Shown here: piece after piece, positions 19,147 through 40,518 of the stretch | Numbering within the stretch: the stretch's first letter is position 1 | Layout: the number at the start of each line of letters is the position of its first letter | Source of the DNA: Winogradskyella thalassocola | GTDB lineage: Bacteria; Bacteroidota; Bacteroidia; Flavobacteriales; Flavobacteriaceae | Assembly: GCF_900099995.1 (NCBI RefSeq) | Contig: NZ_FNCZ01000003.1 | Coordinates: forward strand, 334,355 to 398,354 | Direction of reading: 5' to 3' | DNA length: 64,000 nucleotides | Notes under the pieces: model-generated | Told to the model about the DNA's origin: nothing | Seen by the model: only the letters and a program-made list of their open reading frames with translations | Database searches by the model: none | Position numbers and translations under genes: made by a program

Positions 19147-19235
19147 AAATATATTCAGTTATAAAATCGGGGTATATATCGCAAATTTATAACATGTAGT
19201 CGTTTTTATCTCTTGATATTTACAAAGATTTATAG

Positions 19236-21401: not shown

Positions 21402-21409
21402 TATCTTTG
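21402..21409 (+). promoter_or_regulatory. -7 element for the meaB gene
   Basis: TATCTTTG matches TAnnTTTG and lies 49 bp before the meaB start codon. No clear -33 TTTG at the right spacing. The remaining 344-bp gap (21114-21457) shows no ORF or repeat. Confidence 0.4.
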
Positions 21410-21457
21410 TAGTAGCCGATAACTGCTGAGAAATAGACTCATTTTTATATCATTACC

Positions 21458-22462: not shown

Positions 22463-22495
22463 AACACATCGTAATTTAACTTTCAAAACATACAG

Positions 22496-23251: not shown

Positions 23252-23266
23252 TAATTTGCTGTTTTT

Positions 23267-23490: not shown

Positions 23491-23528
23491 AAAAAAAAGC
23501 CCAAACACATTTATGCTTGGGCCTTTTC
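23491..23528 (-). terminator. Bidirectional terminator between thioesterase and mutase large subunit
   Basis: Stem AAGCCCAA (23497-23504) / TTGGGC (23517-23522) has a T8 run following on the minus strand (A8 at 23491-23498) and CTTTTCTT on the plus strand. It ends the eight-gene methylmalonyl-CoA operon 22 bp past the last stop codon and may also stop the convergent meaB/thioesterase transcript. Confidence 0.8.
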
Positions 23529-23550
23529 TTCAATATACTAACCAAGTTTT

Positions 23551-25683
23551 CTATTCCTGTTCTAAATATTTTTCCATAATTGTAATCGCTGCTTCTGAGA
23601 TCACCGTACCAGGACCAAAAATAGCAACCACTTTCCGTTCTAATAAAAAGTCATAATCTTGAGCAGGAATTACACCTCCGGCAAACACCATTATATCTGG
23701 TCGACCTAATTTTTCTAATTCGCCAATTAACTGCGGAATCAGCGTTTTGTGACCAGCAGCTAAACTCGATGCTCCCACAAAATGCACATCATTTTCAATC
23801 GCTTGTTTTGCGACTTCTTCGGGTGTTTGGAATAAAGATCCCATATCGACATCAAACCCTAAATCAGCAAAACTAGACGCTACAACTTTTGCCCCTCTAT
23901 CGTGACCATCTTGCCCCATTTTTGCGATCATTACTCTTGGTCTTCGACCTTCAATTTCCGCGAATTTATCTGCTAACTTTTGAGCGCTTGCGTAAATGGA
24001 ATCGTTATTAACTTCTTTTCCATAAACACCACTTATTAGTTTAGTAGCCGCTTTATGTCTTCCGAAGTGTACTTCTAAAGCATCTGAAATCTCACCTAAA
24101 GTGGCAAAGTTTTCTGCCGCTTCAACGGCGAGTTCTAATAAGTTGCCTTTTTCACCTCCGGCACAATTCTCTAAGGCTTTTAAATTAGCAGCAACAAGAT
24201 CTGAATTACGATCCGCTTTCATCTTATTCAATCGTGCAATTTGAGATTCTCTAACCGCAGTGTTGTCTATATCTAAAATTTCAATATTTGATTTTTCTGT
24301 GGTTTTAAATTTATTAACACCCACTAAAATATCTTGAGCAGAATCTAATCGTGCTTGTTTACGTGCAGACGCTTCTTCAATTCTCAGTTTAGGAACTCCG
24401 GTTTCAATAGCTTTGGCCATACCGCCAAGTTCTTCTACTTCTTCGATGAGTGTCCACGCTTTTTTAGCGATTTCTTGAGTTAAATATTCTACATAATAAG
24501 AACCAGCCCAAGGATCCACAGATTTGGTCATCTGCGTTTCATCTTGAATAAAAATTTGGGTGTTACGTGCAATCCTTGCTGAGAAATCGGTAGGTAACGC
24601 AATCGCTTCATCTAAAGCATTGGTGTGTAACGATTGTGTACCTCCTAAAGTTGCGGCCATCGCTTCAATACAGGTACGAGCCACATTATTAAAAGGATCT
24701 TGCTCACTTAAACTCCAACCAGAGGTCTGACTATGCGTACGCAAAGCCATTGATTTTGGATTTGTTGGATTAAATGATTTTATAATTTTTGCCCATAGCA
24801 TACGTGCTGCACGCATTTTTGCAATTTCCATAAAGTGATTCATACCAACAGCCCAAAAGAATGATAATCGCGGTGCGAATTCATCAATTTTTAAACCTGA
24901 TTTTAAACCGGTTCTAATGTATTCCATGCCATCGGCTAAGGTGTACGCCAATTCAATATCTGCTGTAGCTCCAGCTTCTTGCATGTGGTAACCACTGATA
25001 GAAATAGAATTAAACTTAGGCATGTTTTTAGTGGTGTAATCGAAAATATCTCCAATAATCTTCATAGAAGGTAACGGCGGATAGATGTACGTATTACGCA
25101 CCATAAACTCTTTTAAGATGTCATTTTGAATCGTTCCTGAAAGTTGATCTAATGGCACTCCTTGTTTTTTTGCAGCCGCAATATAAAAGGCCATAATGGG
25201 CAATACAGCACCATTCATTGTCATAGATACCGACATTTTATCTAATGGAATTTGATCGAACAAAATTTCCATATCTAAAATAGAATCTATGGCAACACCA
25301 GCTTTTCCAACATCACCAGTAACACGAGGGTGATCGGAATCGTAACCTCTGTGTGTTGCTAAATCAAAAGCCACAGACAATCCTTTTTGACCAGCAGCTA
25401 AGTTTCTTCTGTAAAATGCATTAGATTCTTCTGCGGTTGAAAAACCTGCGTATTGACGAATGGTCCATGGACGCATGGCATACATCGCACTGTAAGGGCC
25501 TCTTAAAAAAGGAGGTACACCAGCACAAAAACTTAAATGCTCTGCTGCGGCAATATCCTTTTTTGTAAACTGTTTTTTTACAGGAATACCTTCAGGTGTA
25601 TTCCAAATGTCTTTGCTTTCTGAAGCTTCAACTGTTTGCTTAACAGTTGAATTTAATGTTATATCTGAAAAATCGGGTCTCAT
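23551..25683 (-). CDS. scpA: Methylmalonyl-CoA mutase, large (catalytic) subunit
   Basis: The 710-residue protein has the mutase barrel ([51 protein letters not shown] near 90-140, a substrate-binding [24 protein letters not shown] segment). The C-terminal B12 domain has the cobalt-ligand motif DGHDRGAKV near 590 and [15 protein letters not shown]. It interconverts (R)-methylmalonyl-CoA and succinyl-CoA with adenosylcobalamin. It is the last gene of the operon, 50 bp after the small subunit. Length is usual for the large subunit. The B12-binding histidine is present only here, not in the small subunit, as expected for the heterodimer. The alternative symbol mutB is in use. Confidence 0.96.
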
Positions 25684-25715
25684 GTGTTTTTATTTAATGG
25701 TTTCAATGGTCAGAT

Positions 25716-25735
25716 GGAATCGCCAAAGCGATTTC
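25716..25735 (-). other. Intercistronic hairpin at the end of the small-subunit gene
   Basis: Arms GGAATCGC (25716-25723) and GCGATTTC (25728-25735) form an 8-bp stem (one G-T) around a 4-nt loop. It overlaps the small-subunit stop codon by two bases and has no T-run after it on the minus strand, so it is not a classic terminator. It may stabilise the upstream mRNA or adjust the subunit ratio. Confidence 0.4.
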
Positions 25736-27533
25736 ATACTTCTAAAGATTTTAAGGTTTTTTGAACTTTATTCTGAATCGCAGAAAGTGACACAAGAACA
25801 TCAGTTCTCATATTAACTACACCATCTAAACCAGCTTCAGTTAATTCGTCCATATTTTTTGGAGCACCAGCCAACAATAATACTTTGTCTTTATTCAGCG
25901 CTCTAAATGTGTTTATAAAGTCTAGTGCTGTGGCATCGTAATCGTCATCCGAACTACAAATCACCACGACGTGTGAGTTTGATTTTGCACTTTCATAGGC
26001 TGCTACAGTTGCATTTTCAAAACTCTCTTCTTGGTGGACGTCAAAACCACTAACCCCAATAAAGTCGTAAGCAAATGCTGCTCTTGCTTTTCGCATGGTT
26101 AGATTACCGTAACTCGCTAATTGTACAATTGGTCGTACATTGGTTTCTGCCACTAATTCTTCGGTGACACGTCTCATCGCTTCAATTTCTAAAGATGCTC
26201 TTCTCGGAGTTAACACTTTAGGATTTGCAGCATCTGCTTTAGAAAGCAGTATTGCATCAACGGTTTCCATGAGGTTAGGATATTTATTAATACCAACCAT
26301 AGCTGTACGACGTTGGCTTAATAATTTTAGTTTTTGAAGTCGAATTTCAGCAATTTGTTGTTGAATGGTTTCGTTTTCAAAACTCTTATAAAACCCACCT
26401 TCCGCTTCAATAGCTTTAAATAACTCTAAAGCTTTTTCTGCAATTTTAGTACTTACCTCTTCAATATAATAAGAGCCATCAACCGGATTAGAGACTTTAC
26501 CAAAGTAGGATTCTTCTCGTAATATGGTTGTAATGTTACCTGCAATACGAGTTGAAAAATCTGAAGTACTATTAAATTCTTTATCGTAAGGATCAATTAG
26601 CACTCCATCAACATTACCTAAGATGGCAGACATGGCTTCTGTGGTACAACGCAATAAATTCGTTTCTGCATCTGTTATGGATTTACTCCAAATCGATGTT
26701 TTAGCGGTTATGGTATTAGAGAAATCTATTACACTATATTTAGCTGCAACTTCAGCTAATAGATTGTTGAAGGCTCTAAACTTTCCTATTTCAACAAAAT
26801 ACTCTAAACCTATGGCGAGTAGAACATTTAAGTTGTTAAAAATGTCTTGAGCGGCAACACCTTTTGCTTTTAGTTTTTCAGTTAAAAAGACTAGGGCATT
26901 TAAGGTATAAGCAATCTCTTGGACTTGGTTCGCCCCTGAATCTAAAAATTCAGTTCCAGATATGGTGAGTGCTTTAAAGTTAGGGAAGTCCGCTGTTAGT
27001 TTTATTAATTCTGTGGCAACCTCAACGTTTTTATCATCAAACGAACCTGTTGTCACATAGTTAGATATCATCCTTGTGTTAATGTATCCTTTTAAGTCTT
27101 TGTTTTTTGCAGACGCGACTAAATCTTTGGTGAATGCAATCGCATTATTATACAGTTCAAAGGAAACGGTAATGGTATTTAGGTCAATATCTTTTAAAAG
27201 TTCTGCAACTTTGACCTCACTAATAATTTGAAAAATGATACCATTTATGCCTTCTTCAATGGCTTTTTTTGCTAAATCATTTCCTGTTTCTGAACAGCAA
27301 ACCGCAACGGTTCGATAATTGATTAATGTCTGCGAATTCTCTCCTGTGTTTTTAAGCAGTGTGATTTTGTCTTCACTATTATAGCAAGGTTGAATATTGA
27401 TACCGCTGAGGTTTTTCCAGACTAGCTTTTTATCAAAATCCGCACCTTTTAAATCTGCTGTCACTCTTTCCATCCACTGTTCTGTTGAAACAGGTTGAAA
27501 TTCTGAAAAAAGCCGTTTATTTTTAGTTTTCAT
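25734..27533 (-). CDS. mutA: Methylmalonyl-CoA mutase, small subunit
   Basis: The 599-residue partner subunit of the mutase has a barrel-like N-terminal part (FQPVSTEQWMERVTADLKGADFDKKLVWKNLSGINIQP ... LIDPYDKEFNSTSDFSTRIAGNITTILREES). The C-terminal flavodoxin-like domain has the B12 histidine motif replaced by GVSGFDVHQEES. It lacks the DxHxxG cobalamin ligand, as usual for the non-catalytic subunit. It lies 20 bp downstream of the CoA-transferase gene and 50 bp upstream of the large subunit. Confidence 0.93.
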   Translation of the reverse strand: MKTKNKRLFSEFQPVSTEQWMERVTADLKGADFDKKLVWKNLSGINIQPCYNSEDKITLLKNTGENSQTLINYRTVAVCCSETGNDLAKKAIEEGINGIIFQIISEVKVAELLKDIDLNTITVSFELYNNAIAFTKDLVASAKNKDLKGYINTRMISNYVTTGSFDDKNVEVATELIKLTADFPNFKALTISGTEFLDSGANQVQEIAYTLNALVFLTEKLKAKGVAAQDIFNNLNVLLAIGLEYFVEIGKFRAFNNLLAEVAAKYSVIDFSNTITAKTSIWSKSITDAETNLLRCTTEAMSAILGNVDGVLIDPYDKEFNSTSDFSTRIAGNITTILREESYFGKVSNPVDGSYYIEEVSTKIAEKALELFKAIEAEGGFYKSFENETIQQQIAEIRLQKLKLLSQRRTAMVGINKYPNLMETVDAILLSKADAANPKVLTPRRASLEIEAMRRVTEELVAETNVRPIVQLASYGNLTMRKARAAFAYDFIGVSGFDVHQEESFENATVAAYESAKSNSHVVVICSSDDDYDATALDFINTFRALNKDKVLLLAGAPKNMDELTEAGLDGVVNMRTDVLVSLSAIQNKVQKTLKSLEV

Positions 27534-27553
27534 AATGTGTTTGATTAGTCAAA

Positions 27554-28843
27554 TTATTTTACCATTAAACTACTTCCAAATCTTTCGAAAATAGCTTTAT
27601 CTAATTCTTCTCTACTGTTAGGATGTGCAATATCTCTTAATGATTGCGCACGTTCTTTTAAGCTTTTGCCAAATAATTCCGCAATACCATATTCTGTAGC
27701 AACATACCTTGCATGTGCTCTCGTTGTTACTACTCCAGCTCCTGGTTTTAAAGATGGTACAATTTTAGAAACACCTTTTAGCGTTGTTGAGGTAATCGCT
27801 ATAATAGGTTTTCCTCCTTTAGATAGCGCTGCTCCGCGCATAAAGTCCATCTGACCACCAACACCAGAGAACATTCTTGTGCCAATTGAATCTGCACAAA
27901 CTTGGCCTGTAAAATCAATTTCAATTGCAGAGTTAATAGCTGTTACTTTAGGGTTTTGACGAATTATAGACGTGTCATTAACATAAGCAATATCATTCAT
28001 TTCAATTTCTGGATTGTCATCCATAAAATCGTATAAACGACGTGTTCCCATAGCAAAACCAGAAATTATTTTATAAGGGTTTACTTTTTTCTGAGAACCA
28101 TTCACGATACCTTTTTCTACTAAGTCTACAATGCCTTCTGAGAACATTTCAGTATGAATACCTAAGTTTTTATGATTGGTGAGATAGGTTAAAACGGCAT
28201 TTGGAATACCACCAATTCCCATTTGAAGTGTGGCTCCATCCTCTATAATTTCCGCGATATTTTTACCAATGGCTTGTTCTTCCTTATTCGGTGGCACAAA
28301 TTTCATTTCGTAAATGTCTTCATCGACTAAAACACAAGCGTCAAATCTGTTTAAATGCACCAAAGCATCTCCAAACGTTCGTGGCATTTTAGGGTTAATT
28401 TGAGCTATTATTTTTTTTCCTTTTTCGATGCCAGAACTAACAATGTCTATAGACACTCCTAAGGAACAAAACCCATGCTTGTCTGGTGGAGATACATTGA
28501 CCAATACCACATCTAAATCCATATAGCCTTCACGAAACAAACTTGGAATATCGCTCAGAAAAATAGGAATATAATCGACTGTATTGCCTACCATTTTTCT
28601 AACATTTCCACCAATGAAAAATGCTTTTGTGTGAAAGCTTTCTCTTAAATCTGGATGGGTATATCCACATTCTCCTTCGGTGTGTAAATGAACAATTTCA
28701 ACATTTTTTAATTCTGAAGCCCGCTCTACCATAGCTTTTACTAGGGCTTGTGGAGTGGCAGAACCTCCTTGTATTAATACACGATTGTTAGATTTTATAA
28801 GCTTAACAGCTTCATTGGCTGTCATTATGTTAGGTATTTTCAT
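27554..28843 (-). CDS. Acetyl-CoA hydrolase/transferase-family CoA transferase
   Basis: The 429-residue class I CoA transferase of the Cat1/4-hydroxybutyrate type has MGIGGIPNAVLTYL, the segment GIHTEMFSEGIVDLVEKG which carries the likely catalytic glutamate, and FSGVGGQMDFMRGA in the C-terminal half. It moves CoA between acyl-CoA and a free acid. Placed between the Na+-pump decarboxylase genes and the mutase genes, the most sensible reaction is propionyl-CoA + succinate to propionate + succinyl-CoA, or the acetate equivalent. That specificity is inferred from context, since related enzymes act on acetate, butyrate and 4-hydroxybutyrate. Confidence 0.82.
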   Translation of the reverse strand: MKIPNIMTANEAVKLIKSNNRVLIQGGSATPQALVKAMVERASELKNVEIVHLHTEGECGYTHPDLRESFHTKAFFIGGNVRKMVGNTVDYIPIFLSDIPSLFREGYMDLDVVLVNVSPPDKHGFCSLGVSIDIVSSGIEKGKKIIAQINPKMPRTFGDALVHLNRFDACVLVDEDIYEMKFVPPNKEEQAIGKNIAEIIEDGATLQMGIGGIPNAVLTYLTNHKNLGIHTEMFSEGIVDLVEKGIVNGSQKKVNPYKIISGFAMGTRRLYDFMDDNPEIEMNDIAYVNDTSIIRQNPKVTAINSAIEIDFTGQVCADSIGTRMFSGVGGQMDFMRGAALSKGGKPIIAITSTTLKGVSKIVPSLKPGAGVVTTRAHARYVATEYGIAELFGKSLKERAQSLRDIAHPNSREELDKAIFERFGSSLMVK

Positions 28844-28881
28844 GCTATTAAGATTTAAAAATTAAGGTTGGTTTATGATAC

Positions 28882-30204
28882 TTATGACAAGAAGCTTAAA
28901 ATAATACCTGCTGCGATGGCAGATCCAATAACACCAGAAACATTAGGTGCCATGGCATGCATGAGTAAAAAATTAGTTGGGTCTGATTTGAGACCTTCAT
29001 GATGTACGACTCTCGCACTATCTGGAACTGCAGAAACACCAGCCGCACCAATTAATGGGTTGATTTTATTATCTCCTTTTAAGAATAGATTCATGAATCT
29101 AGCAAATAATAAACCACCCATTGTCGCGATGACAAATGATATGGCTCCGAGTCCAAAAATTAACATAGAATCTTTAGTGATAAAAATATCGGCTTGTGTT
29201 GAAGCTCCAACTGTTACACCTAGTAATATGGTAACAATGTCAATTAATTTTGTTCTTGCGGTGTCTGCTAAACGTTCAGTTCTTCCAGATTCTTTTAATA
29301 AGTTTCCAAAGAATAACATTCCTAATAACGGTAACGCACTAGGCGAAATGAACAAGGTTAGAATCATAGCGACTACCGGAAAAATCATTTTCTCCTTTTG
29401 CGTCACCGCTCTTGGTGGTTTCATTTTGATTTTTCTATCTTTTTTTGAAATCAACAAGCGCATTAAAGGTGGCTGAATTACAGGCACTAATGCCATATAA
29501 GAATACGCAGCAATGGCGATTGGGCCAATTAAGTTTTTAACTGTTGTACCATCTGGAAGTAGGTTGACTCCGTTTGCTAATTTAGACGAAAGGAAAATCG
29601 CTGTGGGTCCATCTGCACCTCCAATGATTCCAATAGCACCAGCTTCTGGAAGAGCAAAACCGAGGTACAAAGCTCCCATAAACGTAGCGAATACACCAAT
29701 TTGTGCTGCACCTCCTAAAAGCATTAATTTAGGATTGGCGATGAGTGATGAAAAGTCTGTCATGGCACCAATTCCTAAGAAAATTAGTGGTGGATAAATC
29801 CCTTTTACAACACCAAAATAGAGGTAGTTTAAAACAGATCCGGTTTCATAAATACCTGTCTGGTTTCCGGCAACAAAAGGAATATTTCCTAAAATAACAC
29901 CTGCTCCAATAGGGATTAATAATAAGGGTTCGTAATTGTATTTAATACCTAAGTAGATAAAAACAATTCCGATAATAATCATAATGACATTTCCGGAAGA
30001 CGAATTTGCGAATCCTGTATAACTGTAAAATGATTTTATACCATCAACGGCTTCGTTGATAATACTTTCTTCTTCAGTAGTATCAACTTGTGTTGTTGAT
30101 ACTGAAGAATTAGTGGCTGTATTTATATTTGCGCCTAAGCCAAGTACTGGTCTAATAAAAACGAGTAAAGCTATAGTGCTAAATATTATTATTAATTTCT
30201 TCAT
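28882..30204 (-). CDS. Na+-translocating decarboxylase, beta (membrane) subunit
   Basis: The 440-residue OadB/MmdB/GcdB-type carboxybiotin decarboxylase has about ten hydrophobic segments. It has IGGADGPTAIFLSSKLANG with the family aspartate, the block PLLGMLFFGNLLKESGRTERL, and the C-terminal NPLIGAAGVSAVPDSARVVHHEG ... MHAMAPNVSGVIGSAIAAG. An N-terminal extension of ~60 residues includes a signal-like helix. It decarboxylates carboxybiotin and moves Na+ out across the inner membrane. The gene lies 52 bp after the biotin carrier gene. The associated alpha and gamma subunits are all present in this operon. Confidence 0.93.
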   Translation of the reverse strand: MKKLIIIFSTIALLVFIRPVLGLGANINTATNSSVSTTQVDTTEEESIINEAVDGIKSFYSYTGFANSSSGNVIMIIIGIVFIYLGIKYNYEPLLLIPIGAGVILGNIPFVAGNQTGIYETGSVLNYLYFGVVKGIYPPLIFLGIGAMTDFSSLIANPKLMLLGGAAQIGVFATFMGALYLGFALPEAGAIGIIGGADGPTAIFLSSKLANGVNLLPDGTTVKNLIGPIAIAAYSYMALVPVIQPPLMRLLISKKDRKIKMKPPRAVTQKEKMIFPVVAMILTLFISPSALPLLGMLFFGNLLKESGRTERLADTARTKLIDIVTILLGVTVGASTQADIFITKDSMLIFGLGAISFVIATMGGLLFARFMNLFLKGDNKINPLIGAAGVSAVPDSARVVHHEGLKSDPTNFLLMHAMAPNVSGVIGSAIAAGIILSFLS

Positions 30205-30256
30205 TTTTTAATTTTAAATACTGATTAGTTTTCTTTGTTGAATAGCATTCACAACG

Positions 30257-30676
30257 TTATTCAAGCTCTATCAATAAAGCATCTTGCAACACTTGTTGTC
30301 CCACTACAACTTTTATAGAGGCTACGACTCCAGATTTTTCGGCTACGATGTTGTTTTCCATCTTCATAGCTTCTAGAACTAATAATAAATCGTTTTCTTT
30401 AATCGTATCACCAACTTTTACATTTAGAGAAAGGATGACTCCTGGAATAGGTGCTACAATGTTGGTTTTTGTAGATTTTGGTGTGACTTGTAAAGGTGCT
30501 GCTGGTTGTTTTGAAGCTGAACGCACCAAAGTAGGAGTTTTGGTTTTTTTAATTTCAGTACTCATAATGACTTCGTAAGATGTGCCATTGACCTCTAAGT
30601 TGATAATATTATCTTCGTGTGATTTTATATTAACCGAGTAACCGTTTTCGTTGACTTTGAATTTATAATTTTTCAT
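30257..30676 (-). CDS. Biotin carboxyl carrier subunit of the decarboxylase
   Basis: The 139-residue protein has an N-terminal anchoring part, a Pro/Thr-rich linker (SASKQPAAPLQVTPKSTK) and a C-terminal biotinyl domain with APIPGVILSLNVKVGD and the biotinylation motif EAMKME (Lys105). It carries the CO2 from the transcarboxylase (alpha) to the membrane decarboxylase (beta). No biotin carboxylase gene is present in the cluster, which argues for decarboxylation rather than ATP-driven carboxylation. Confidence 0.92.
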   Translation of the reverse strand: MKNYKFKVNENGYSVNIKSHEDNIINLEVNGTSYEVIMSTEIKKTKTPTLVRSASKQPAAPLQVTPKSTKTNIVAPIPGVILSLNVKVGDTIKENDLLLVLEAMKMENNIVAEKSGVVASIKVVVGQQVLQDALLIELE

Positions 30677-30767
30677 GGGTTTATGTTTAATGTTTTTCTA
30701 TGGCCACATGCTGTTCGCTATTAACCATTTCTTTTAGTGAAAAAACTGAACAAGCTTGTTTTGTGTG

Positions 30768-31127
30768 TTATAATCTATTTTGAATGCCATATATTTTTGA
30801 ACTCCAAGGCGAATATGCTTTTTTGACTTGCTTTATGGTTAAGATGCCACTTTCGTTGTCGTGTTGTTCGCTTAAATACATATGAACAGCCGCTCCGATA
30901 ACTGCTGAAATCTCTCCTGTAAAACCACTATCTCCTTTTACTTTAATTTCACTAATCTTCTTGTCTTTTCCTTTGGTGATTATCTTGTAGACATATAGCA
31001 TTAATGGTAATCCGTAATTAAAGAACAATGCTAGTGTTACTAAGGCTCCAAAAACAATTAATAAACCAGTAATTAGAATAACATAGCCTTCACTGATGGT
31101 ATCTGTGTATAATAGTATCTGTGTCAT
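30768..31127 (-). CDS. OadG-like small membrane subunit of the Na+-pump decarboxylase
   Basis: The 119-residue protein has one N-terminal transmembrane helix (GYVILITGLLIVFGALVTLALFF), a short positive linker and a soluble tail with IGAAVHMYLSE and WSSKIYGIQNRL. This matches the gamma/delta assembly subunit (OadG/MmdD). Its start codon overlaps the mmdA-like stop by one base (TAATG), so the two are translationally coupled. It stabilises the membrane complex. Confidence 0.85.
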   Translation of the reverse strand: MTQILLYTDTISEGYVILITGLLIVFGALVTLALFFNYGLPLMLYVYKIITKGKDKKISEIKVKGDSGFTGEISAVIGAAVHMYLSEQHDNESGILTIKQVKKAYSPWSSKIYGIQNRL

Positions 31128-32686
31128 TATAGTGGGATATTTGAGTGTTTTTTAGGTGGATTTACATCCTTTTTATTTTGAAGTAATTCTAAAGCTCTAA
31201 TGATTCTGAATCTTGTATTTCTAGGTTCAATAACATCATCTATAAATCCATATTTAGCAGCTTGGTATGGGTTGGCAAATCGCTCTGTGTACTCATCTTC
31301 TTTTTTGTCAATGTAATCTTGTTTTTCGTCGGCATCTTCTATTTTTCTAATATTAGATCCTTCTAAAACTTCTACAGCACCCTTCGCTCCCATTACGGCT
31401 ATCTCTGCCGTTGGCCATGCATAGTTGACATCACCTCTTAGTTGTTTACAGCTCATAACATCGTGTGCTCCACCATAAGATTTTCGTAACGTAATAGTCA
31501 CTTTAGGTACAGTAGCTTCACCATAAGCAAATAATAATTTAGCTCCATGTAGTATAATGCCGCCATACTCTTGGCCTGTTCCCGGTAAAAATCCTGGTAC
31601 GTCAACTAATGTTACGATAGGAATATTGAAGGCATCACAAAAACGCACAAATCGGGCTGCTTTTCTAGAAGCATCAATATCCAAAACACCTGCATAAAAT
31701 TTAGGCTGATTCGCTACGATACCTACAGGTCGCCCATTGAATCTTGCAAAGCCGACACAAATGTTTCTTGCATAATTTCGATGCACTTCAGTAAACTCTC
31801 CATTATCAGTAAGGATTGAAATTACATCAACGATATCATAAGGTTGGTTAGGGTTTTCTGGAATAATTTCATTTAAAGCATCTTCCAATCTATCTATAGG
31901 ATCATTACATGAAATAATTGGTGCTTCTTCTAAATTATTAGAAGGCATATAACTCAATATTTTACGAATGAGCATTAAATTCTCTTCGTCATTTGCCGCT
32001 AAGAAATGAGACACACCAGATCGTGTTGAATGAATCTTAGCACCACCTAATTGTTCTGCAGTAACGACCTCGCCTGTGACCGATTTCACAACTTTTGGCC
32101 CTGTAACAAACATATAGCTCGTTTCTTCGGTCATAATAGTAAAGTCCGTCAATGCTGGAGAATATACCGCGCCACCTGCACAAGGTCCTAAAATGGAAGA
32201 AATTTGAGGAATAACACCAGACGCCATTATGTTTCGCTGGAAAATCTCAGCATAACCCGCTAAAGATCTTACACCTTCTTGAATACGAGCGCCACCAGAA
32301 TCATTCAATCCTATTACAGGAACACCAATCTTCATCGCCATATCCATTACCTTACATATTTTTAAGGCGTAAGTTTCAGATAATGATCCACCGAAAACGG
32401 TAAAGTCTTGCGCAAAAAGGTATACTATTCTTCCGTCAATTGTACCGTGACCAGTCACTACACCATCCGAGAGGTATATTTGTTTATCTAATCCAAATGA
32501 TTTTGTTCTGTGCGTCACAAACATGTCGAATTCTTCGAAACTATCGTCGTCTAAAAGAATGTCTATGCGTTCACGAGCTGTTAATTTTCCTTTAGCATGT
32601 TGTGAGTCTATACGTTTTTCACCGCCTCCCAACTTCGCTTTTGCTCTTTTTTCTATGAGCTCGTTAATTTTATCTTGATTTGCCAT
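31127..32686 (-). CDS. Methylmalonyl-CoA decarboxylase, carboxyltransferase (alpha) subunit
   Basis: The 519-residue carboxyltransferase is of the PccB/MmdA type: [92 protein letters not shown] and a C-terminal [35 protein letters not shown]. It transfers the carboxyl group between methylmalonyl-CoA and biotin. By sequence alone a propionyl-CoA carboxylase beta subunit is possible. The three following genes (small membrane, biotin carrier, membrane decarboxylase) and the lack of a biotin carboxylase favour the Na+-pumping decarboxylase. Confidence 0.9.
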
Positions 32687-32719
32687 AATTTTCTTTACTT
32701 ATCTAAATATTATATCAAA

Positions 32720-33127
32720 TTATTTTGGTTGTGAACACAGTTCTGTGAGTACACCTAAGGTTGACTTTGGATGTAAGAATCCAATCTCTAGCCCTTCTGC
32801 GCCTTTTCGGGATGTTTTATCAATTAAAGTGACACCTCTTTCTTCCACGGTTTTTAGAGCTTCTGTCGTATTGTCTACAGCGAATGCGATATGATGAATG
32901 CCTTGTCCTTTTTTTGCAATAAACTTTCCTATTGGGCCATCTGGAGATGTGCTCTCTAGTAATTCAATTTTTGTATGACCTACCAAAAAAAAGGCTGTCT
33001 TCACTTTTTGATCGACAACCTCTTCTATAGAATAGCATTTCATACCTAATACCTGTTCATAATATGCTATAGCTTCTTCTAAGTTTTCGACAGCAATTCC
33101 TAAATGCTCTATGTGTGATATATTCAT
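32720..33127 (-). CDS. mce: Methylmalonyl-CoA epimerase
   Basis: The 135-residue VOC-fold protein has HIEHLGIAVENLEEAIAYYEQVLG, the metal-binding His in IEHLG and HHIAFAVDN, and the glutamate pair KIELLEST / TLGVLTELCS. It converts (S)- to (R)-methylmalonyl-CoA, joining the decarboxylase product to the mutase substrate. It is the first gene of the eight-gene operon, 33 bp before the mmdA-like gene. Confidence 0.95.
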   Translation of the reverse strand: MNISHIEHLGIAVENLEEAIAYYEQVLGMKCYSIEEVVDQKVKTAFFLVGHTKIELLESTSPDGPIGKFIAKKGQGIHHIAFAVDNTTEALKTVEERGVTLIDKTSRKGAEGLEIGFLHPKSTLGVLTELCSQPK

Positions 33128-33149
33128 GATGTTTGTTTTATTTCTTGTA

Positions 33150-33157
33150 CAAATTTA
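33150..33157 (-). promoter_or_regulatory. -7 element for the mce operon
   Basis: CAAATTTA on the plus strand reads TAAATTTG on the minus strand, a match to TAnnTTTG, 22 bp before the mce start codon. No good -33 box is seen. The rest of the 457-bp gap (33128-33584) is AT-rich with no ORF; nothing else stands out. Confidence 0.45.
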
Positions 33158-33584
33158 CTTTAGGACGGTTTTCTATTTTATGACAGAAATCATATTATAA
33201 GAGACGATAATTATTCGTTTTCTTTGTGTTGGGAAGCACTAAAGCGCGAAGAGTTGCGTAGTTGTTGACTTACAAGAAATAATCGTATGGGAAGTTGGTC
33301 TTTATTTATAAAAATAAGAACCGACGATTTATGAAATCTCTATTTTAAGGGTGTTATATTTAGTAATAGCGCAAAAAAAGAAGCTTATTTTACTAAAACT
33401 GAAGTGTTTTTGCTTATTGTTTAGAATAAATGATGTTATTAATATCAAAATCTTAATATTTTGATGAAATAAACTGCAAAGCAGGTAGTTACGAAAACGT
33501 TATCGTGATTATTTATTATAAATTACTATCCATTTAGAGTTAAAAACGGATCATAATGTCATCGAAATGGAGACGACTTGAGAA

Positions 33585-34208
33585 TTAACTTGTGATTAAA
33601 TTAAAAGAAATTTTAATCCCTTGAATAATCATACCAGTACCTATAATGGCAATGATTAAACCCATTATTTTTCCAATAACAGAAATAACATTATTGCCAA
33701 CGACTTTTACAATAAGGTCACTCATTTTAAATGTATAATAGGTTATTAGACTCATGGAACCAAATATGGCAATGACTAAGATGATATGTAAAACTTCAAC
33801 TTTAGATACAAAATTCATTGCTGTAACAATGGTTCCGGGACCTGCTAAAATTGGAATAGCTAATGGTGAAACAGCGATATTTTCATCAATATTAACATGT
33901 TTAATATTTTTGACGTCAGACTTTTTGGATTGTAACATTTCAAAACCAATATAGAAGATTAAGATACCACCTGTAATCTTAAATGCTGGAATACTAATAT
34001 TAAACAATTCAAAAATATACTTTCCTAAAAGCACAAAAACGGTGACGATAATAAAGGCTATAATATTGGCTCTTTTATTTATGTCATCTTTTGTTTTTTT
34101 ATCTGCACCTTGAGTAAGTGACAAAAAAACCGTCATATTAGAAATAGGATTGGTTATCGCAAAAAACCCGGTAAATACGGTAATACAAAACGTTATTAAG
34201 TTTTCCAT
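33585..34208 (-). CDS. MarC-family integral membrane protein
   Basis: The 207-residue protein has six hydrophobic segments and the MarC signature FAITNPISNMTVFLSLTQG near 17-35, a second half repeat LAIPILAGPGTIVTAMNF and an inner helix pair at the end. The substrate is unknown: older annotation as a multiple-antibiotic-resistance protein was not confirmed in E. coli. It appears to be a single gene, with a -7-like element TAGTTTTG (34241-34248, minus) 33 bp upstream. Confidence 0.88.
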   Translation of the reverse strand: MENLITFCITVFTGFFAITNPISNMTVFLSLTQGADKKTKDDINKRANIIAFIIVTVFVLLGKYIFELFNISIPAFKITGGILIFYIGFEMLQSKKSDVKNIKHVNIDENIAVSPLAIPILAGPGTIVTAMNFVSKVEVLHIILVIAIFGSMSLITYYTFKMSDLIVKVVGNNVISVIGKIMGLIIAIIGTGMIIQGIKISFNLITS

Positions 34209-34240
34209 TTAAGGGAATATTTTGATTTCAAAAAAAAACG

Positions 34241-34248
34241 CAAAACTA
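34241..34248 (-). promoter_or_regulatory. -7 element for the marC-like gene
   Basis: CAAAACTA on the plus strand reads TAGTTTTG on the minus strand (TAnnTTTG). It sits 33 bp before the start codon. There is no clear upstream TTTG partner. Confidence 0.35.
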
Positions 34249-34464
34249 ATTCTTTATCTCTAAACTAATTTTATTTTTTTAATATTTAATCGCTGTTATT
34301 TTATTGTGTTTGAAAAGATACAAAATTGAAACTTTATATAGAAAACGGCTAATTATATAAGGCTTCTTTTTGGCATAGTATCGGTTGTTTTTAATCAAAA
34401 AAGAAAGCTTTATGATTACATCACAAAGCTTTTCTGAAATTGCTACTAGTTAGGGGTCTAGAGT

Positions 34465-35298
34465 TTAGCAATCTATATGTTTAGTTAATAAGACCTCAAT
34501 GTCATTCGGGTTCAGTTTAGGATTAGCTCCTTCGCTACTCGCTACAACAGCTCCAACGACGCAAGCAAAATCAATAGCGGTTTGTGGTGCTTCTCCTTTG
34601 AGTAATTTATCCGTTAAAGCAGCTAAAAATGAATCCCCAGCACCTACGGTATCTACGACATTGATTTTATGACCCTTATTGTAATAAAACGTGTCGTTAT
34701 AAAAGAGTATCGCTCCTTTTGAGCCCAATGTGACGCAAATTGATTTTGTGTTGGTCTGCTGCGCAATAAATTTTATACAGCCTTCTAAATTCTGAGTATC
34801 TGAGTTTCGTTTATCTATGATTTCTGAAATTTCATGATTGCTGAACTTTTTAAAATCTGCAGCTTTCATTATAAGATGTGTCACTATTTCAATAATTTCA
34901 TCATCATTAAACTTAATAAAATCTGCAGACTCCATTAAATGATTTAAAACCTCCTTGGTGTAATATGGAGCTCTAAGATTAACATCAAAAATTTTATAAG
35001 GAGCAATTTCTAAAAGGGAATAAAGCGTTTGTTTAGTATTATGATCTCTTGCACTCAGACTTCCATATATAAAAGCATCTGAAGCTAAAGTAATAGCCTT
35101 AGCGCTTTTTGTCAATTGAATATGATCCCAAGCACTTGGGTAATTTATAGTATAAGAAGCTGAACCTTCATCATTTAATGAAACGGCCACTTCACCTGTT
35201 TTTAATTCTGAATCTATTTGAATATCATCAACAGCAACTCCATTTTCTTTTATAAATTGAAAAATACCTTCTCCATCTGAATCGTTCGAAACGACTAA
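34465..35298 (-). pseudogene. 5'-truncated PfkB-family sugar kinase (fructokinase type)
   Basis: The reading frame carries the C-terminal four-fifths of a PfkB kinase: ELKTGEVAVSLNDEGSASY, IYGSLSARDHNTKQTL, FDVNLRAPYY and the catalytic VDTVGAGDSFLAAL. The apparent start is only a GTG (35190) inside the conserved KTGEVAVSLN stretch, and coding similarity continues upstream as VVSNDSDGEGIFQFIKENG to about 35298 without an ATG. The usual first ~45 residues (substrate-binding GGAPxNVA region) are missing. Also present is a 66-bp in-frame duplication: ESADFIKFNDDEIIEIV and KAADFKKFSNHEISEII. The N-terminus was evidently lost in the same event that cut the divergent Nudix gene. Probably non-functional. 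Confidence 0.75.
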
Positions 35299-35917
35299 GG
35301 ATGTCTTGGTCGATGATTATGTACTTACAGGATATCATGTGTATGACGATGAAACTTTAGATGAATCAGCAACTCGTGTATTGAAGGAGCTAACAGGTTT
35401 GACCAATCAGTATAAAAAACAGTTTAAGGCCTTTGGAAATCCAGATCGTTTATCAAATGAAAAAGATCTTATCTGGGTTCAAAATCAAGAATTTAATCTT
35501 AGAACGATTACTATAGCGTATTACTTCTTGTTAAAAACAGAAGATGTTGATGTTGATAATAATAAGTATGAGGCCAAGTGGTTTCCGCTTAGAGAATTAC
35601 CAGAATTAGGATTCGATCATCAACAGATTATTGAAGAAGCGCATGACGATTTAAAAACAAAATGTTTAGCTGAACCTATTATATTCGAATTACTTCCGGA
35701 TAAATTCACCATTAATGACGTGCAAGATCTTTACGAATCCATCTTAGGAATAGAGATTGACAATCGTAACTTCAGACGAAAACTGATTAATAAAAAATAC
35801 ATCATTCCTTTAGATGAAAAACAAGTTGGCGTGTCTAAAAAACCAGCACAGTTATACATGTTTAGTAAAGACATTTATAAAAAAATGTATCATAAAAATT
35901 ACTTGATTAATATTTAA
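35299..35917 (+). pseudogene. 5'-truncated Nudix-type sugar regulator (AraR/NrtR-like)
   Basis: The frame encodes the latter part of a Nudix-fold regulator: TGYHVYDDETLDESATRVL (a degenerate Nudix box lacking proper catalytic spacing), KQFKAFGNPDRL, FNLRTITIAYYFLL, EAKWFPLRELPELGFDH, and a C-terminal winged helix with GIEIDNRNFRRKLINKKYI and the KKPAQLYMF tail. Full-length relatives begin with ~50 residues carrying the VDCVIFGFD...LLI segment, absent here. There is no ATG; the only candidate is TTG 35306. It is divergent from, and abuts, the equally truncated kinase, the expected partner of this regulator type in sugar loci. Confidence 0.72.
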
Positions 35918-36155
35918 TTTTAAAAACACAGCTTAAAGTTTAGTTTAAAAAAATAACACAATTTTAAGTTTTAGTATTTAAAAACCTTTTAAGTTTGCCC
36001 ACTTAATTATCAAGAATCTCAAAAAGAGATAGCAACCTGCAGTAACGAGCAAGGTGCTAAATAAGATAAGCCAAATACTTTGGAAAAAACGTTACACTAA
36101 TTCCCACGTATTTACTTGTTGTCTACTTTTTGCGATTCTGACAAAAAACAGATTC

Positions 36156-37478
36156 ATGTCGTCAATTAAACCGATTACCCCAAGTTTTAAAGCCTTACTT
36201 CCATTTTTAGTATTCATCATTACGTTTTTAAGCGTTGGAATTATTCAAAATGACTTTTATGCCTTACCTGCTCCTATTGCTGTTATTGCAGGAATCCTAG
36301 TGGCATTTCTCATGTTTAAGCAGTCTATCAATTCTAAAATCAGCACACTTTTAGAAGGTTGTGGAGATCCTAAAATACTCACCATGTGCTTAATTTATTT
36401 ACTGGCTGGTGCATTTGCGGCCGTCACAAAAGCTACGGGAAGTGTAGATACGATTGTTCATTTAGGATTAGACCTCATTAATAGCCAATACATTTATTTT
36501 GGAGTTTTTATCATCGCTGCCTTTTTATCCGTTTCAACGGGAACCTCCGTTGGTGCTATTGTAGCTTTGGCACCTATAGTGATTGGATTTGCGGACACTG
36601 GTGATTTCTCTTTGGGTATTTTATGTGGCGCCTTATTAGGTGGTTCCATGTTTGGTGATAATTTATCGGTAATATCGGATACGACCATTGCAGCTACCCA
36701 ATCATTAGACTGTAAAATGAGTGATAAATTTAAAGCCAACATTAAGATTGCCTTACCTGCAGCGCTTGTAACTATTGGAATTCTTATTTATCAAGGCTTA
36801 AGTCTGCAAACGGATGGTACAGAAACCGTCGCCTATTCGTATTCCATATTAAAGATTGCTCCTTATGTTATTGTGATTGTTTTATCTATAATAGGTATTA
36901 ACGTTTTTACAACCTTGATGTTGGGGGTGATTTCAGCGGGAATTCTAGGAGTGTTTTATGGGGATTTTTCAATCATTGAATTTACAAGAATCAGCTATAC
37001 AGGTTTTACCAACATGACAGAAATTTTCCTGCTATCTTTATTAACAGGTGGTTTAGCAGCTTTGGTAGCTTTCAATGGAGGCATCGAATTTATTTTAGTC
37101 AAAATTAAAACATTGATTAGAAATCAGAAAACAGCGCAATTCGGCATTGCAGCTTTAGTTTCTACCATTAATACGGCTATTGCGAACAATACGGTTTCGA
37201 TTATTATTTCAGGATCTATAGCTAAATCTATTAATGATGAATATGGCCTGGACAATAAACAAACAGCGTCAATCTTAGATGTGTTTGCCTGTATTACACA
37301 AGGACTTTTACCATATGGCGCGCAAGTATTAATGATTTTAAGTTTCGCGAAGGGTAATATTACGTATATCGATTTGGTATCTAATACATGGTATTTAGTG
37401 TTGCTATTATTGTCTACTACTCTATTTATTGGATTCAGAAGCAATTCTAAAATTAACGTAAACTCTAAAACGGATTAG
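36156..37478 (+). CDS. nhaC: NhaC-family Na+/H+ antiporter
   Basis: I choose ATG 36156 (440 residues, MSSIKPITPSFKALLPFLVF); an ORF from 36054 would add 34 residues with poor membrane-protein character. About eleven hydrophobic segments, with the family blocks AGAFAAVTKATGSVDT, SVSTGTSVGAIVALAPI, GALLGGSMFGDNLSVISDTT and a C-terminal NNTVSIIISGSIAK ... LLPYGAQVLMILSFA. It exchanges Na+ for H+ at the inner membrane. It has no clear operon partner; the upstream gap 35918-36155 has no recognisable promoter. It follows the Nudix remnant, from which it may once have been read. Confidence 0.9.
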   Translation: MSSIKPITPSFKALLPFLVFIITFLSVGIIQNDFYALPAPIAVIAGILVAFLMFKQSINSKISTLLEGCGDPKILTMCLIYLLAGAFAAVTKATGSVDTIVHLGLDLINSQYIYFGVFIIAAFLSVSTGTSVGAIVALAPIVIGFADTGDFSLGILCGALLGGSMFGDNLSVISDTTIAATQSLDCKMSDKFKANIKIALPAALVTIGILIYQGLSLQTDGTETVAYSYSILKIAPYVIVIVLSIIGINVFTTLMLGVISAGILGVFYGDFSIIEFTRISYTGFTNMTEIFLLSLLTGGLAALVAFNGGIEFILVKIKTLIRNQKTAQFGIAALVSTINTAIANNTVSIIISGSIAKSINDEYGLDNKQTASILDVFACITQGLLPYGAQVLMILSFAKGNITYIDLVSNTWYLVLLLLSTTLFIGFRSNSKINVNSKTD

Positions 37479-37558
37479 GTTAAACAGATCTCACTCATCT
37501 TATTAGAATATTTTGGTGCTTGTTTAGTGGTTAAACATAAACCTTTGTTAAAAAAAAG

Positions 37559-37587
37559 AATGAACGTTCATTTTTGCCGTATATTTG
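37559..37587 (+). promoter_or_regulatory. TetR-type operator and promoter
   Basis: The 14-bp perfect palindrome AATGAACGTTCATT (37559-37572) is followed 7 bp later by TATATTTG (37580-37587), a full TAnnTTTG match. The start codon of the TetR gene is at 37606. The operator occupies the usual -33 position, so binding should block RNA polymerase. This is the type of site bound by many TetR-family repressors. Confidence 0.75.
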
Positions 37588-37605
37588 TATCAGAATTAAA
37601 ACACA

Positions 37606-38190
37606 ATGGCAAAACTTCAAAAAAGTATAGATAAACGTAATGCACTCGTTAAGGCAACCATAGAGTTGGTTAACAACAACGGGTTTCATGCGACTCCTAT
37701 GAGTAAGATTGCTAAAATGGCTAATGTGTCGCCGGCAACCATTTACTTATACTTTGAAAACAAACAAGACTTAGTTAATCAAACGTATATAGATGTTAAG
37801 GCGGAATACACCAATTATGCATTTGCCGATTTTGATCCTAACATGCCCATTGAAGAAGGCTTTGAAATGATATGGAAACGCATCGCCGATTTTAAACTGA
37901 ACGAATGCGAGCATGCTATGTTTTTAGCACAGTGTGATAATACTCCAATGATAGATGAGGAAAGTAGACAAGAAGGTATTAAGCACTTACAACCACTACT
38001 CGATCTTTGGGAACGTGGTAAAAAAGAAGGGGTTATAAAACCGCTTTCAGATTATATATTATATGCTTACGCTATCAACCCTTTATCTTTTTTAATGATG
38101 ACTCAAAAACGAGGATCATTTACCTTAGATAAAGCACATTTAGAAGAGGCCTATCAATCTGCTTGGAGCAGTATAAAAATGTGTAAATAG
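37606..38190 (+). CDS. TetR/AcrR-family transcriptional regulator
   Basis: The 194-residue protein has an N-terminal HTH: GFHATPMSKIAKMANVSPATIYLYFENKQDLVNQTY (separable as ATPMSKIAKMANVS and PATIYLYF). The C-terminal ligand domain is all-helical and diverged, as usual. It is first in a same-strand run of five or six genes, with only one base between its stop and the next start. With the palindrome at its own promoter, autorepression is likely. The operon enzymes suggest the inducer is an electrophile or aldehyde, as with NemR. Confidence 0.92.
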   Translation: MAKLQKSIDKRNALVKATIELVNNNGFHATPMSKIAKMANVSPATIYLYFENKQDLVNQTYIDVKAEYTNYAFADFDPNMPIEEGFEMIWKRIADFKLNECEHAMFLAQCDNTPMIDEESRQEGIKHLQPLLDLWERGKKEGVIKPLSDYILYAYAINPLSFLMMTQKRGSFTLDKAHLEEAYQSAWSSIKMCK

Positions 38191-38191
38191 T

Positions 38192-38857
38192 ATGAAAAAA
38201 ACAGCAATCATATTAGGCGCATCTGGTTTAACTGGTGGTTTAGTACTTCAAAAATTAATTGAAGACGACCGTTACGATACCATTAAATTGTTTTCACGCT
38301 CAAAAATTAAAGGTTTACCAAATAAAGTCAAACAATTTATTGGCGATCTATTAGAGCTTAACCAATTTAAAGAAGACTTTACAGCAGACGACGTGTATTG
38401 TTGTATTGGTACCACGGCGAAAAAGACACCAGACAAAACACTTTATAAGAAAATAGATTTCGGAATTCCGGTTGCCGCTGCAAAGCTTTCAAAAGAAAAT
38501 AACATCCCTACTTTTTTAGTCGTCTCAGCAATGGGAGCTAATAAAAATAGTACTGTGTTTTACAATAAGACGAAAGGAGAAATGGAACACAACGTCTTAA
38601 AGCAACAGCTTAAAAAGACATTTATTCTAAGACCATCTTTAATTGGTGGTGATAGACAAGAATCTAGACGATTAGAAAAAATAGGATTGGTGATTTTTAA
38701 AGTAATTCAGCCTTTATTCATCGGTAAATTAAAGAAATATAAAATAGTGAATGCCGAAACCATAGCGCAAGCTATGATACACTTAGCAAATACAAACCAT
38801 TATGCTGATGTGATTATAACGTCAGATGATATTAATAAATTAGGAAACAACGCTTAA
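38192..38857 (+). CDS. NAD(P)-binding Rossmann protein (atypical SDR)
   Basis: The 221-residue protein starts with the nucleotide motif MKKTAIILGASGLTGGLVL (GxxGxTG), then LFSRSKIKGLPNKVKQFIGDL, VYCCIGTTAKKTPDKTLYKKIDFG and FLVVSAMGANKNSTVFYNKTK. This is an NmrA/TIP30-like atypical SDR. No catalytic Tyr-Lys pair of classical SDRs is certain, so its substrate is unknown. It lies in the TetR operon of oxidoreductases. Confidence 0.82.
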   Translation: MKKTAIILGASGLTGGLVLQKLIEDDRYDTIKLFSRSKIKGLPNKVKQFIGDLLELNQFKEDFTADDVYCCIGTTAKKTPDKTLYKKIDFGIPVAAAKLSKENNIPTFLVVSAMGANKNSTVFYNKTKGEMEHNVLKQQLKKTFILRPSLIGGDRQESRRLEKIGLVIFKVIQPLFIGKLKKYKIVNAETIAQAMIHLANTNHYADVIITSDDINKLGNNA

Positions 38858-38873
38858 AAAAGAAATTATAAAT

Positions 38874-39506
38874 ATGGAATTATTAGATAAATTAAATTGG
38901 AGATATGCCGCTAAAGCAATGAATGGAAACGTGGTACCAGAAGAAAAAATACAACGCATTTTAGAAGCAGCACGTTTGGCGCCAACATCAAGTGGTTTAC
39001 AACCTTTTGAAATTATGGTGATTACAAATCAAGATATAAAAGAAAAGATTAAACCTGTAGCATGGAACCAGTCGGTAATTACAGACTGCTCTCACCTACT
39101 CGTTTTCGCTGCTTGGGATACTTACACTGAAGACAGAATTAATTATATGTTCGATTTAACTAATGAGATTCGTGGTTTTAAAAACGAAGGTTGGGAAAAC
39201 TATCGCCAAATGCTACTAAGCTCATATCCACAAAAAGATGCGGAAGAAAACTTTAACCATGCCGCTAAGCAAGCATATATCGCATTTTCACAAGCGATAA
39301 CTGCAGCGGCTTTTGAAGGTGTAGATACCACTCCACTCGAAGGTTTTGATCCGGCTGCAGTTGATGAAATTTTAGGACTTAGAGAAAAAGGATTACGTAG
39401 TGCCGTATTATTACCTGTTGGCTACAGAAAAGAAAATGAAGATTGGCTAGTAGATCTTGTTAAGGTGAGAAAACCTATGGAAGATTTAGTAACTGTAATT
39501 AACTAA
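38874..39506 (+). CDS. NAD(P)H-dependent nitroreductase-family flavoprotein
   Basis: The 210-residue protein has an RYAAKAMNGNVVPEEKIQRILEAARLAPTSSGLQPFE FMN region (separable as RYAAKAMN and ARLAPTSSGLQPF). It ends AAFEGVDTTPLEGFDPAAVDEIL ... SAVLLPVGYRKENEDW. It is paralogous to the gene at 15605-16282 but belongs to a different regulon (TetR here, HxlR there). It probably reduces quinones, nitro compounds or enals. It lies 16 bp after the SDR gene. Confidence 0.88.
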   Translation: MELLDKLNWRYAAKAMNGNVVPEEKIQRILEAARLAPTSSGLQPFEIMVITNQDIKEKIKPVAWNQSVITDCSHLLVFAAWDTYTEDRINYMFDLTNEIRGFKNEGWENYRQMLLSSYPQKDAEENFNHAAKQAYIAFSQAITAAAFEGVDTTPLEGFDPAAVDEILGLREKGLRSAVLLPVGYRKENEDWLVDLVKVRKPMEDLVTVIN

Positions 39507-39519
39507 AAAACAAAGAATC

Positions 39520-40518
39520 ATGACAAAGACAATTTTATTAAAAAATAGACCTGAAGGAAAACCTTCAATGTCAGATTTCGAATTTAAAACAGAGGAATCT
39601 GAAAACACAGTAAACCAAGGAGAATTACTATTAGAAACTAAATATGTTTCGGTAGATCCTTATTTACGAGGACGAATGAGTGATGCCAAATCATATGTGC
39701 CACCATTTCAACTTGATAAGCCAATTCAGTCTGGCGTAATTGCTGAAGTATTAGAATCTAAAAACGACAAGTTTGAGGCTGGCGATTTTGTCTCTGGCAT
39801 GCTCAACTGGCAAACAAAACAGGTCTCTAAAGCTGAAGGATTAACTAAAGTTGATTCGTCTAAAGCACCATTATCTGCTTATTTGGGTATTCTAGGTATG
39901 ACAGGTTTAACAGCTTACACAGGATTAACCGAAATTGGAAAACCGAAAGCAGGCGAAACATTAGTCGTTTCTGGTGCAGCTGGTGCCGTTGGATCTGTTG
40001 TAGGACAAATTGGAAAAATCCTAGGCCTGAAAGTGATTGGTATCGCCGGAACAGATGAAAAAATAGAGCTTCTAAAAAGCAAGTTTGGTTTTGATGCTGG
40101 TATCAATTATAAGACCACAAAAGACATGAAAGCTGCCATTGCAGAAGCAGCACCAAATGGTGTAGATATCTATTTTGATAATGTTGGAGGTCCAATTTCA
40201 GATGCGGTTTTAGTGAATATTAATAGATTGGCACGAATCATTGTTTGTGGAGCTATTTCAGTTTATAACAATACAGAGGCACCAAAAAGCTTGAGTGTTC
40301 AACCGTTCTTAGTAAAAAACAGTGCGTTAATGCAAGGGTTTATTGTCTCTAATTATACGGACAAATTCCCAGAAGCTATGAAGCAATTATCAACATGGTT
40401 GGCAGAAGACAAACTAACCTATTCAGAAACCATAGTTAAAGGTTTTGATAACATTCCGAGTGCTTTTATCGATTTATTTGAAGGTAAAAACAAAGGGAAA
40501 ATGGTAGTTGAATTATAA
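39520..40518 (+). CDS. NADP-dependent MDR reductase (2-alkenal/curcumin reductase type)
   Basis: The 332-residue leukotriene-B4/PTGR-like MDR protein has LLETKYVSVDPYLRGRMSD near 37-55, a Rossmann motif VSGAAGAVGSVVGQIGKILG near 149-168 and DIYFDNVGGPISDAVL, with FDNIPSAFIDLFEGKNKGKMVV at the end. There are no zinc ligands. This family reduces the C=C bond of enals and enones with NADPH, which fits a defence operon. It lies 13 bp after the nitroreductase gene. Confidence 0.9.
   Translation: MTKTILLKNRPEGKPSMSDFEFKTEESENTVNQGELLLETKYVSVDPYLRGRMSDAKSYVPPFQLDKPIQSGVIAEVLESKNDKFEAGDFVSGMLNWQTKQVSKAEGLTKVDSSKAPLSAYLGILGMTGLTAYTGLTEIGKPKAGETLVVSGAAGAVGSVVGQIGKILGLKVIGIAGTDEKIELLKSKFGFDAGINYKTTKDMKAAIAEAAPNGVDIYFDNVGGPISDAVLVNINRLARIIVCGAISVYNNTEAPKSLSVQPFLVKNSALMQGFIVSNYTDKFPEAMKQLSTWLAEDKLTYSETIVKGFDNIPSAFIDLFEGKNKGKMVVEL

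Follow-up and report, generated by a model that had tools for sequence, protein, structure and literature searches.

A Probable Recent Deletion Joins Two Truncated, Divergent Genes of a Putative Mannitol Locus in Winogradskyella thalassocola

Introduction

Zobellia galactanivorans reportedly possesses a mannitol utilization system that includes a mannitol 2-dehydrogenase and a fructokinase. Intact loci in several Winogradskyella species resemble the description of this system: a PfkB gene comes directly after a mannitol-dehydrogenase-family gene, and a gene for a Nudix-type regulator is divergent from them. In Zobellia barbeyronii (locus L092), the regulator, dehydrogenase and kinase genes are found in the same order as in the intact Winogradskyella relatives.

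Two of the encoded proteins can be compared with solved structures. The intact kinase of Winogradskyella pacifica aligns with the PfkB-family fructokinase 2qhp, which we take to be of Bacteroides origin, at residues 4-180 and 223-305 (E 2.6e-41). The intact W. pacifica regulator aligns across residues 4-235 (E 6.3e-37) with PDB 5bs6, presumably the AraR of Bacteroides thetaiotaomicron (BtAraR). AraR is described as an NrtR-family protein with an N-terminal Nudix-like ligand domain and a C-terminal winged helix, and the ligand-binding domain covers residues 1-148 (PMC4666351). Unlike AraR, the intact Winogradskyella regulator adjoins mannitol-type genes and not arabinose genes.

Here we describe a stretch of 64,000 nucleotides (the window; C17:334355-398354) from the draft genome of the marine bacterium W. 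thalassocola, an assembly of 29 contigs that is rated 100% complete (G000). Compared with the Zobellia system, the window keeps only the 3' parts of the kinase and regulator genes, and the dehydrogenase and transporter genes are gone. Very probably, kinase codon 48 and regulator codon 37 were brought together by an illegitimate deletion that occurred recently in this lineage of Winogradskyella. Deletion-derived pseudogene pairs are known in bacterial genomes and the present case is like them in having a single join, two truncated frames that point apart and a junction that was not found in sister species; it is unusual only in striking both divergent genes at once. In the open-access literature we found no paper joining Winogradskyella, mannitol and fructokinase.

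The Intact Locus and Its Likely Function

The nearest genome compared was that of W. pacifica R3187 (G013), in which the intact locus is designated L059. W. pacifica, W. eximia and W. costae share the gene order regulator, permease, dehydrogenase and kinase, and in W. psychrotolerans a ribose-type ABC transporter cassette and a 299-aa gene replace the permease. Between regulator and dehydrogenase, the relatives thus have either a 571-aa permease (L059 5457-7172) or the ribose-type ABC cassette (L060 7997-11448), and from these gene orders the transporter seems to have been swapped as a unit. Of 15 loci searched, 13 contained regulator, dehydrogenase and kinase and two (L065, L066) contained the kinase alone. 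The 571-aa permease was found beside dehydrogenase and kinase in six of the 15 (L082, L084, L062, L064, L067 and L088), with 87-97% identity. Outside the genus, the same divergent layout is present in Z. barbeyronii and in Lutibacter citreus (L088). W. arenosi (G021) has two dehydrogenase copies and a second regulator copy that is in pieces and contains stop codons (G021:C4:113058-113329; L027, L028); a mannitol-type locus may be decaying in this species also.

The W. pacifica dehydrogenase has both Pfam mannitol dehydrogenase domains, and its nearest solved structures are mannitol dehydrogenase 1lj8 (E 2.9e-136) and mannitol 2-dehydrogenase 7rk4 (E 5.5e-124). Its best matches in NCBIfam are fructuronate reductase (394.5 bits, cut-off 603) and D-arabinitol 4-dehydrogenase (367.1 bits, cut-off 600), and none of the dehydrogenase, kinase and regulator reaches any listed NCBIfam curated cut-off. 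For the kinase, the cut-off of the fructokinase equivalog PRK09434.1 (450 bits) is missed both by the intact W. pacifica protein (93.7 bits) and by the remnant in the window (72 bits). Searches with the permease gave no Pfam match at 1e-3, no match among solved structures at 0.1 and in NCBIfam only a weak match to CytX. Family and structure matches together make mannitol the likely substrate of the intact locus, which would encode mannitol uptake and conversion via fructose to fructose-6-phosphate under the Nudix regulator.

The Junction

The following features were assigned in and around the junction (window coordinates):

34389..34464, minus strand, 3' flank of the kinase gene, alignable to W. 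pacifica; the neighbourhood changes further left
34465..35283, minus strand, PfkB-family fructokinase-like remnant, corresponding to W. pacifica codons 48-319 (of 319) and the stop codon
35284..35288, no strand, deletion junction, with kinase-side homology to 35285, TC at 35286-35287 and regulator-side homology from 35288
35288..35917, plus strand, NrtR/AraR-type Nudix winged-helix regulator remnant, codons 37-245 of 245 plus stop

Window positions 34389-35285 match W. pacifica L059 9716-8820 (92.3%) and positions 35288-40286 match L059 4996-1 (96.2%). Between these two matched flanks lie 3.82 kb of W. pacifica sequence that are unmatched in the window, and this missing stretch comprises both 5' ends, a 352-bp divergent intergenic region, the 571-aa permease gene and a 500-aa mannitol-dehydrogenase-family gene. 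The two breakpoints are 3823 bp apart in W. pacifica, 3822 bp in W. eximia, 3800 bp in W. costae and 6531 bp in W. psychrotolerans. Since in all four relatives both remnants align collinearly with the two sides of this longer segment, the arrangement at the junction is not due to chance.

The join contains no N bases, and the TC at 35286-35287 matches neither side in register. An exact microhomology at the join, which an earlier note on this DNA had advised looking for, was not found; there is only the 2-bp filler and, nearby, the 7-bp word ATCTGAA, which W. pacifica and W. eximia have no more than 15 bp away from each of the two breakpoints. The shared word is 6 bp long in W. psychrotolerans, and W. 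costae has a different one of 5 bp. Microhomology was dropped as weak proof of a mechanism because a word of at least 7 bp was also common to 6.3% of 5000 random position pairs. A mobile-element origin was likewise rejected, as the words shared within 15 bp of the W. pacifica breakpoints do not exceed 7 bp and no transposase- or integrase-like genes were recognised by eye among the 12 ORFs listed for 31-39.5 kb. The join fits illegitimate end joining as a candidate mechanism.

Further to the left, window 15600-34390 differs from the neighbourhoods in W. pacifica, W. psychrotolerans and W. costae. We take the genes on this side to be nfsB-like, KefB-like and MarC-like genes in another order (MarC-like at 33585-34208) and a methylmalonyl-CoA pathway block. 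In W. eximia, the methylmalonyl block comes directly after the intact kinase, without the MarC-like gene. This changed neighbourhood was considered as part of the same event and rejected, because W. eximia has it, the MarC-like gene excepted, beside an intact locus. As W. pacifica also has other genes on this side of the kinase, the history of the region is more complex than one deletion.

The Two Truncated Genes

The kinase frame runs on the minus strand from its stop at 34465-34467 and is open to 35316, with an in-frame minus-strand TAA at 35317-35319. Homology to the intact W. pacifica copy ends at 35285; D48 of 319 is the first codon that is homologous in full, and residues 1-47 are missing. 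The earlier note had put this loss at about 45 residues and had placed the conserved N-terminal segment within it, which is correct for the segment and close for the length. The segment, GGAPLNVA in the W. pacifica protein, aligns with fructokinase 2qhp. The N-terminal substrate-binding segment of PfkB kinases and fructokinases contains the GGAPxN motif; it is kept in the kinases of W. pacifica, W. psychrotolerans, W. eximia and W. costae and missing in the window. What is left of the kinase matches PF00294 (PfkB) over profile positions 58-298 of 302 (E 3.9e-31). Apart from the missing N-terminus, the window kinase differs from 2qhp by an extra internal near-repeat, formed by codons 164-183 and 186-205 (W. 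pacifica numbering), which agree in 10 of 20 residues and 39 of 60 bases. With 297 aa against 319, the kinase of W. eximia is 22 residues shorter, and it is unaligned at window 34779-34882.

On the plus strand, the regulator has an open frame of 218 codons that runs from 35261 to its stop at 35915-35917, and homology to W. pacifica begins at 35288 with E37 of 245. Here residues 1-36 are missing, fewer than the 50 or so that the earlier note had proposed when it recognised that the N-terminus was gone. The winged-helix domain is intact (PF21906, profile 2-61 of 61, E 1.5e-24) and the start of the Nudix-like ligand domain is missing. The Pfam search at 1e-3 did not detect the Nudix domain (PF00293) in the remnant, and in the intact W. 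pacifica regulator it was detected weakly (E 9.2e-6). Relative to AraR, the part missing from the window regulator belongs to the ligand-binding domain as described for AraR (PMC4666351).

Neither remnant has an ATG at or near its 5' end. The earliest start-type codons are GTG at 35190-35188 for the kinase and TTG at 35306 for the regulator, and both frames indeed start mid-protein, as the earlier note had stated. It had also described the two remnants as meeting without a spacer; only 2 bp lie between them, and the boundary is at 35285/35288 and not at 35298/35300.

The Intergenic Control Region

The intergenic region beside the regulator contains the palindrome AAACGT-N7-ACGTTT in all four intact relatives examined (W. 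pacifica: L059 5105-5456). In the whole genomes, the pattern occurs at a single place in both W. pacifica and W. psychrotolerans, at two places in W. costae and at three in W. eximia, with one of these at this locus in each. In W. thalassocola the copy at this locus is gone and two matching places are found elsewhere. A reversed-pattern control matched at a single place in two of the genomes and nowhere in the other three, and the pattern alone is therefore not much above background. On sequence grounds, the palindrome is a candidate operator of the regulator. A palindrome in W. thalassocola (G000:C19:1144041-1144059) lies about 1.3 kb from a distant dehydrogenase paralogue and occurs at equal distance in G062; in both genomes it may simply be conserved flanking sequence.

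The pattern TAnnTTTG, which we take to be the Bacteroidetes -7 promoter pattern, is present in the intergenic regions of the four intact relatives and absent from window 35100-35500 on both strands. A search of the five sequences (window and four intact relatives) for the complete two-box promoter pattern found no match.

Search for the Missing DNA and Distribution in the Genus

A 4-kb W. pacifica query was compared with the whole W. thalassocola assembly and gave two edge matches at the junction; the other matches among the best 40 of 92 candidates were at most 50 bases long, with E of at least 0.0155. The permease had no match in the assembly at E<=1, in a search that was run without a separate positive control, and for the dehydrogenase the best match was only a 30% paralogue on contig C19. 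The idea that the missing piece had moved to another contig was rejected, as neither the DNA query (best 40 of 92 candidates) nor the permease or dehydrogenase search located it in the assembly.

A 301-bp junction probe was searched in 68 Winogradskyella genomes, with 11 candidates scored per genome. It gave some match in 21 of the 68 and an end-to-end match in W. thalassocola alone. The earlier note had named close relatives with the same compact arrangement as an observation that would speak against a deletion; the compact junction was present in 0 of the 67 other genomes. The regulator side of the probe matched (at least 74%) in 17 other genomes, and in five of these (G013, G031, G060, G062 and G052) the kinase side matched too, kilobases away. 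Eight probe matches of 29-66 bases (E 2.7e-4 to 5.7e-4; G021, G031, G012, two in G014, G063, G017 and G062) were taken as chance.

At 1e-20, the dehydrogenase was found in 28 of the 68 genomes. Seventeen of them have it at 63-100% identity and eleven, including W. thalassocola, matched solely through a distant 26-30% paralogue. The genomes with the close dehydrogenase (17 of the 67 others) are the same ones that carry the regulator orthologue, and W. thalassocola alone among the 68 has this orthologue without a close dehydrogenase. Distant regulator relatives (32-40%) were the only match in seven further genomes and kinases at 43-57% occurred in ten genomes without the regulator orthologue (60 genomes searched). 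Because these distant regulators and kinases also occur elsewhere unpaired, only the pairing of orthologues is informative.

Age of the Probable Loss and Selection on the Remnants

Neither remnant contains an internal stop or a frameshift. Synonymous divergence between W. thalassocola and W. pacifica is patchy from gene to gene (kinase 0.35, NhaC-like 0.23, regulator 0.10, NAD-binding-like 0.083 and TetR-like 0.056). This is a sign that the region has probably undergone recombination, which makes both the branch counts and the neutral-share figures rough. Changes were counted per single codon position, a procedure that produced one spurious stop. For the kinase, the W. thalassocola branch has 11 synonymous and 6 nonsynonymous changes, against 12 and 5 for the intact W. 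pacifica gene. For the regulator, these numbers are 5 and 0 against 0 and 0. The intact neighbours gave (synonymous/nonsynonymous, W. thalassocola vs W. pacifica) 13/2 vs 20/2 for the NhaC-like gene, 5/0 vs 0/1 for the TetR-like gene and 3/2 vs 4/5 for the NAD-binding-like gene, with W. psychrotolerans partly or wholly missing from the counts of these three genes. Under neutrality, about 79% of the kinase changes are expected to be nonsynonymous and the probability of at most 6 in 17 is about 0.00013; as a rough figure, the neutral share of the branch is at most about 0.3 for the kinase remnant.

The substitutions in the remnants look as constrained as those in the intact copy. The loss would be recent, because the remnants have no stop or frameshift and their substitutions are still constrained. 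That selection shows no relaxation agrees with a recent deletion, but also with an artefact or with truncated products that are still under selection. Of these, a recent deletion is by far the most likely.

Evaluation of the Possible Explanations

The proposed deletion would have removed both 5' ends, the divergent control region, the permease gene and the mannitol-dehydrogenase-family gene, about 3.8 kb in total if the ancestor resembled W. pacifica, W. eximia and W. costae. The ends would have been repaired by end-joining or through a microhomology-type pathway, leaving the 2-bp filler, and not through a mobile element or long repeats. One deletion through both N-termini and the shared control region had already been suggested in the earlier note and is supported by the collinear intact relatives. 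In the alignment with relatives that keep both genes these are intact, with breakpoints 3.8 kb apart (6.5 kb in W. psychrotolerans), and the loss reaches further than had been suggested, to the whole permease and dehydrogenase genes. The idea that the remnants are relics of a lost sugar locus is supported as well; this locus was probably of the mannitol type, at scores below every NCBIfam equivalog cut-off.

The locus could still be intact in the strain if the contig was mis-joined or if a minority or culture-derived deletion variant was reported. The division of the draft into 29 contigs and the lack of decay in the remnants would agree with such an assembly or sampling artefact, but the 3.8 kb are found in no contig of an assembly that is rated complete. 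A k-mer mis-join needs far more than 7 bp of shared sequence, and a 3.8-kb gap of this kind would be an unusual assembly error. The ends share a word of at most 7 bp near the join, which is far too short, and the join has no N bases and a filler that matches neither side. An artefact is therefore unlikely. The two frames might also form a functional compact divergent pair that is expressed from GTG 35190 and TTG 35306 and has kept a role. Both frames being stop-free, the exclusively synonymous changes of the regulator on the W. thalassocola branch and the complete winged-helix domain would all be in line with this. However, the kinase would have to act without its GGAPLNVA segment and the regulator without the first part of its ligand domain, searches for the partner dehydrogenase and permease did not find them and none of the 67 other genomes has the arrangement; the missing TAnnTTTG pattern also argues against a functional pair, weakly, given that no complete two-box pattern was found in any of the five sequences. 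We regard a functional pair as very unlikely. Lastly, the compact form could be ancestral and the intervening genes could have been inserted later in the relatives. The intervening transporter differs between relatives, which indicates that genes come and go at this locus. Still, the proteins of the relatives run across both breakpoints as complete and conserved N-termini, and the same divergent layout occurs beyond the genus in Z. barbeyronii and L. citreus. Since an insertion could not create two correct N-termini, an ancestral compact form is refuted in practice and has hardly any probability left.

Implications for Winogradskyella

With the recent deletion as the preferred explanation, the kinase and regulator remnants are presumably non-functional. 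As the remaining genes are gone too, the strain would therefore have lost its probable route from mannitol to fructose-6-phosphate. It is predicted to lack growth on mannitol via this route, whereas W. pacifica may grow. The case is a further example of ordinary gene loss. Its value is that sister species of Winogradskyella differ here by the clean, recent loss of a probable mannitol-use locus, apparently in a single event. It is also a warning for annotation, as the 'PfkB kinase' and the 'Nudix regulator' called here are both truncated.

Winogradskyella has many alga-associated members. One could speculate that the mannitol route was given up recently and selectively, that the truncated winged-helix protein still acts on DNA and that the sister species keep the route, but we consider this combination quite unlikely. 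If the loss was selective, W. thalassocola would represent a natural knock-out of the mannitol route.
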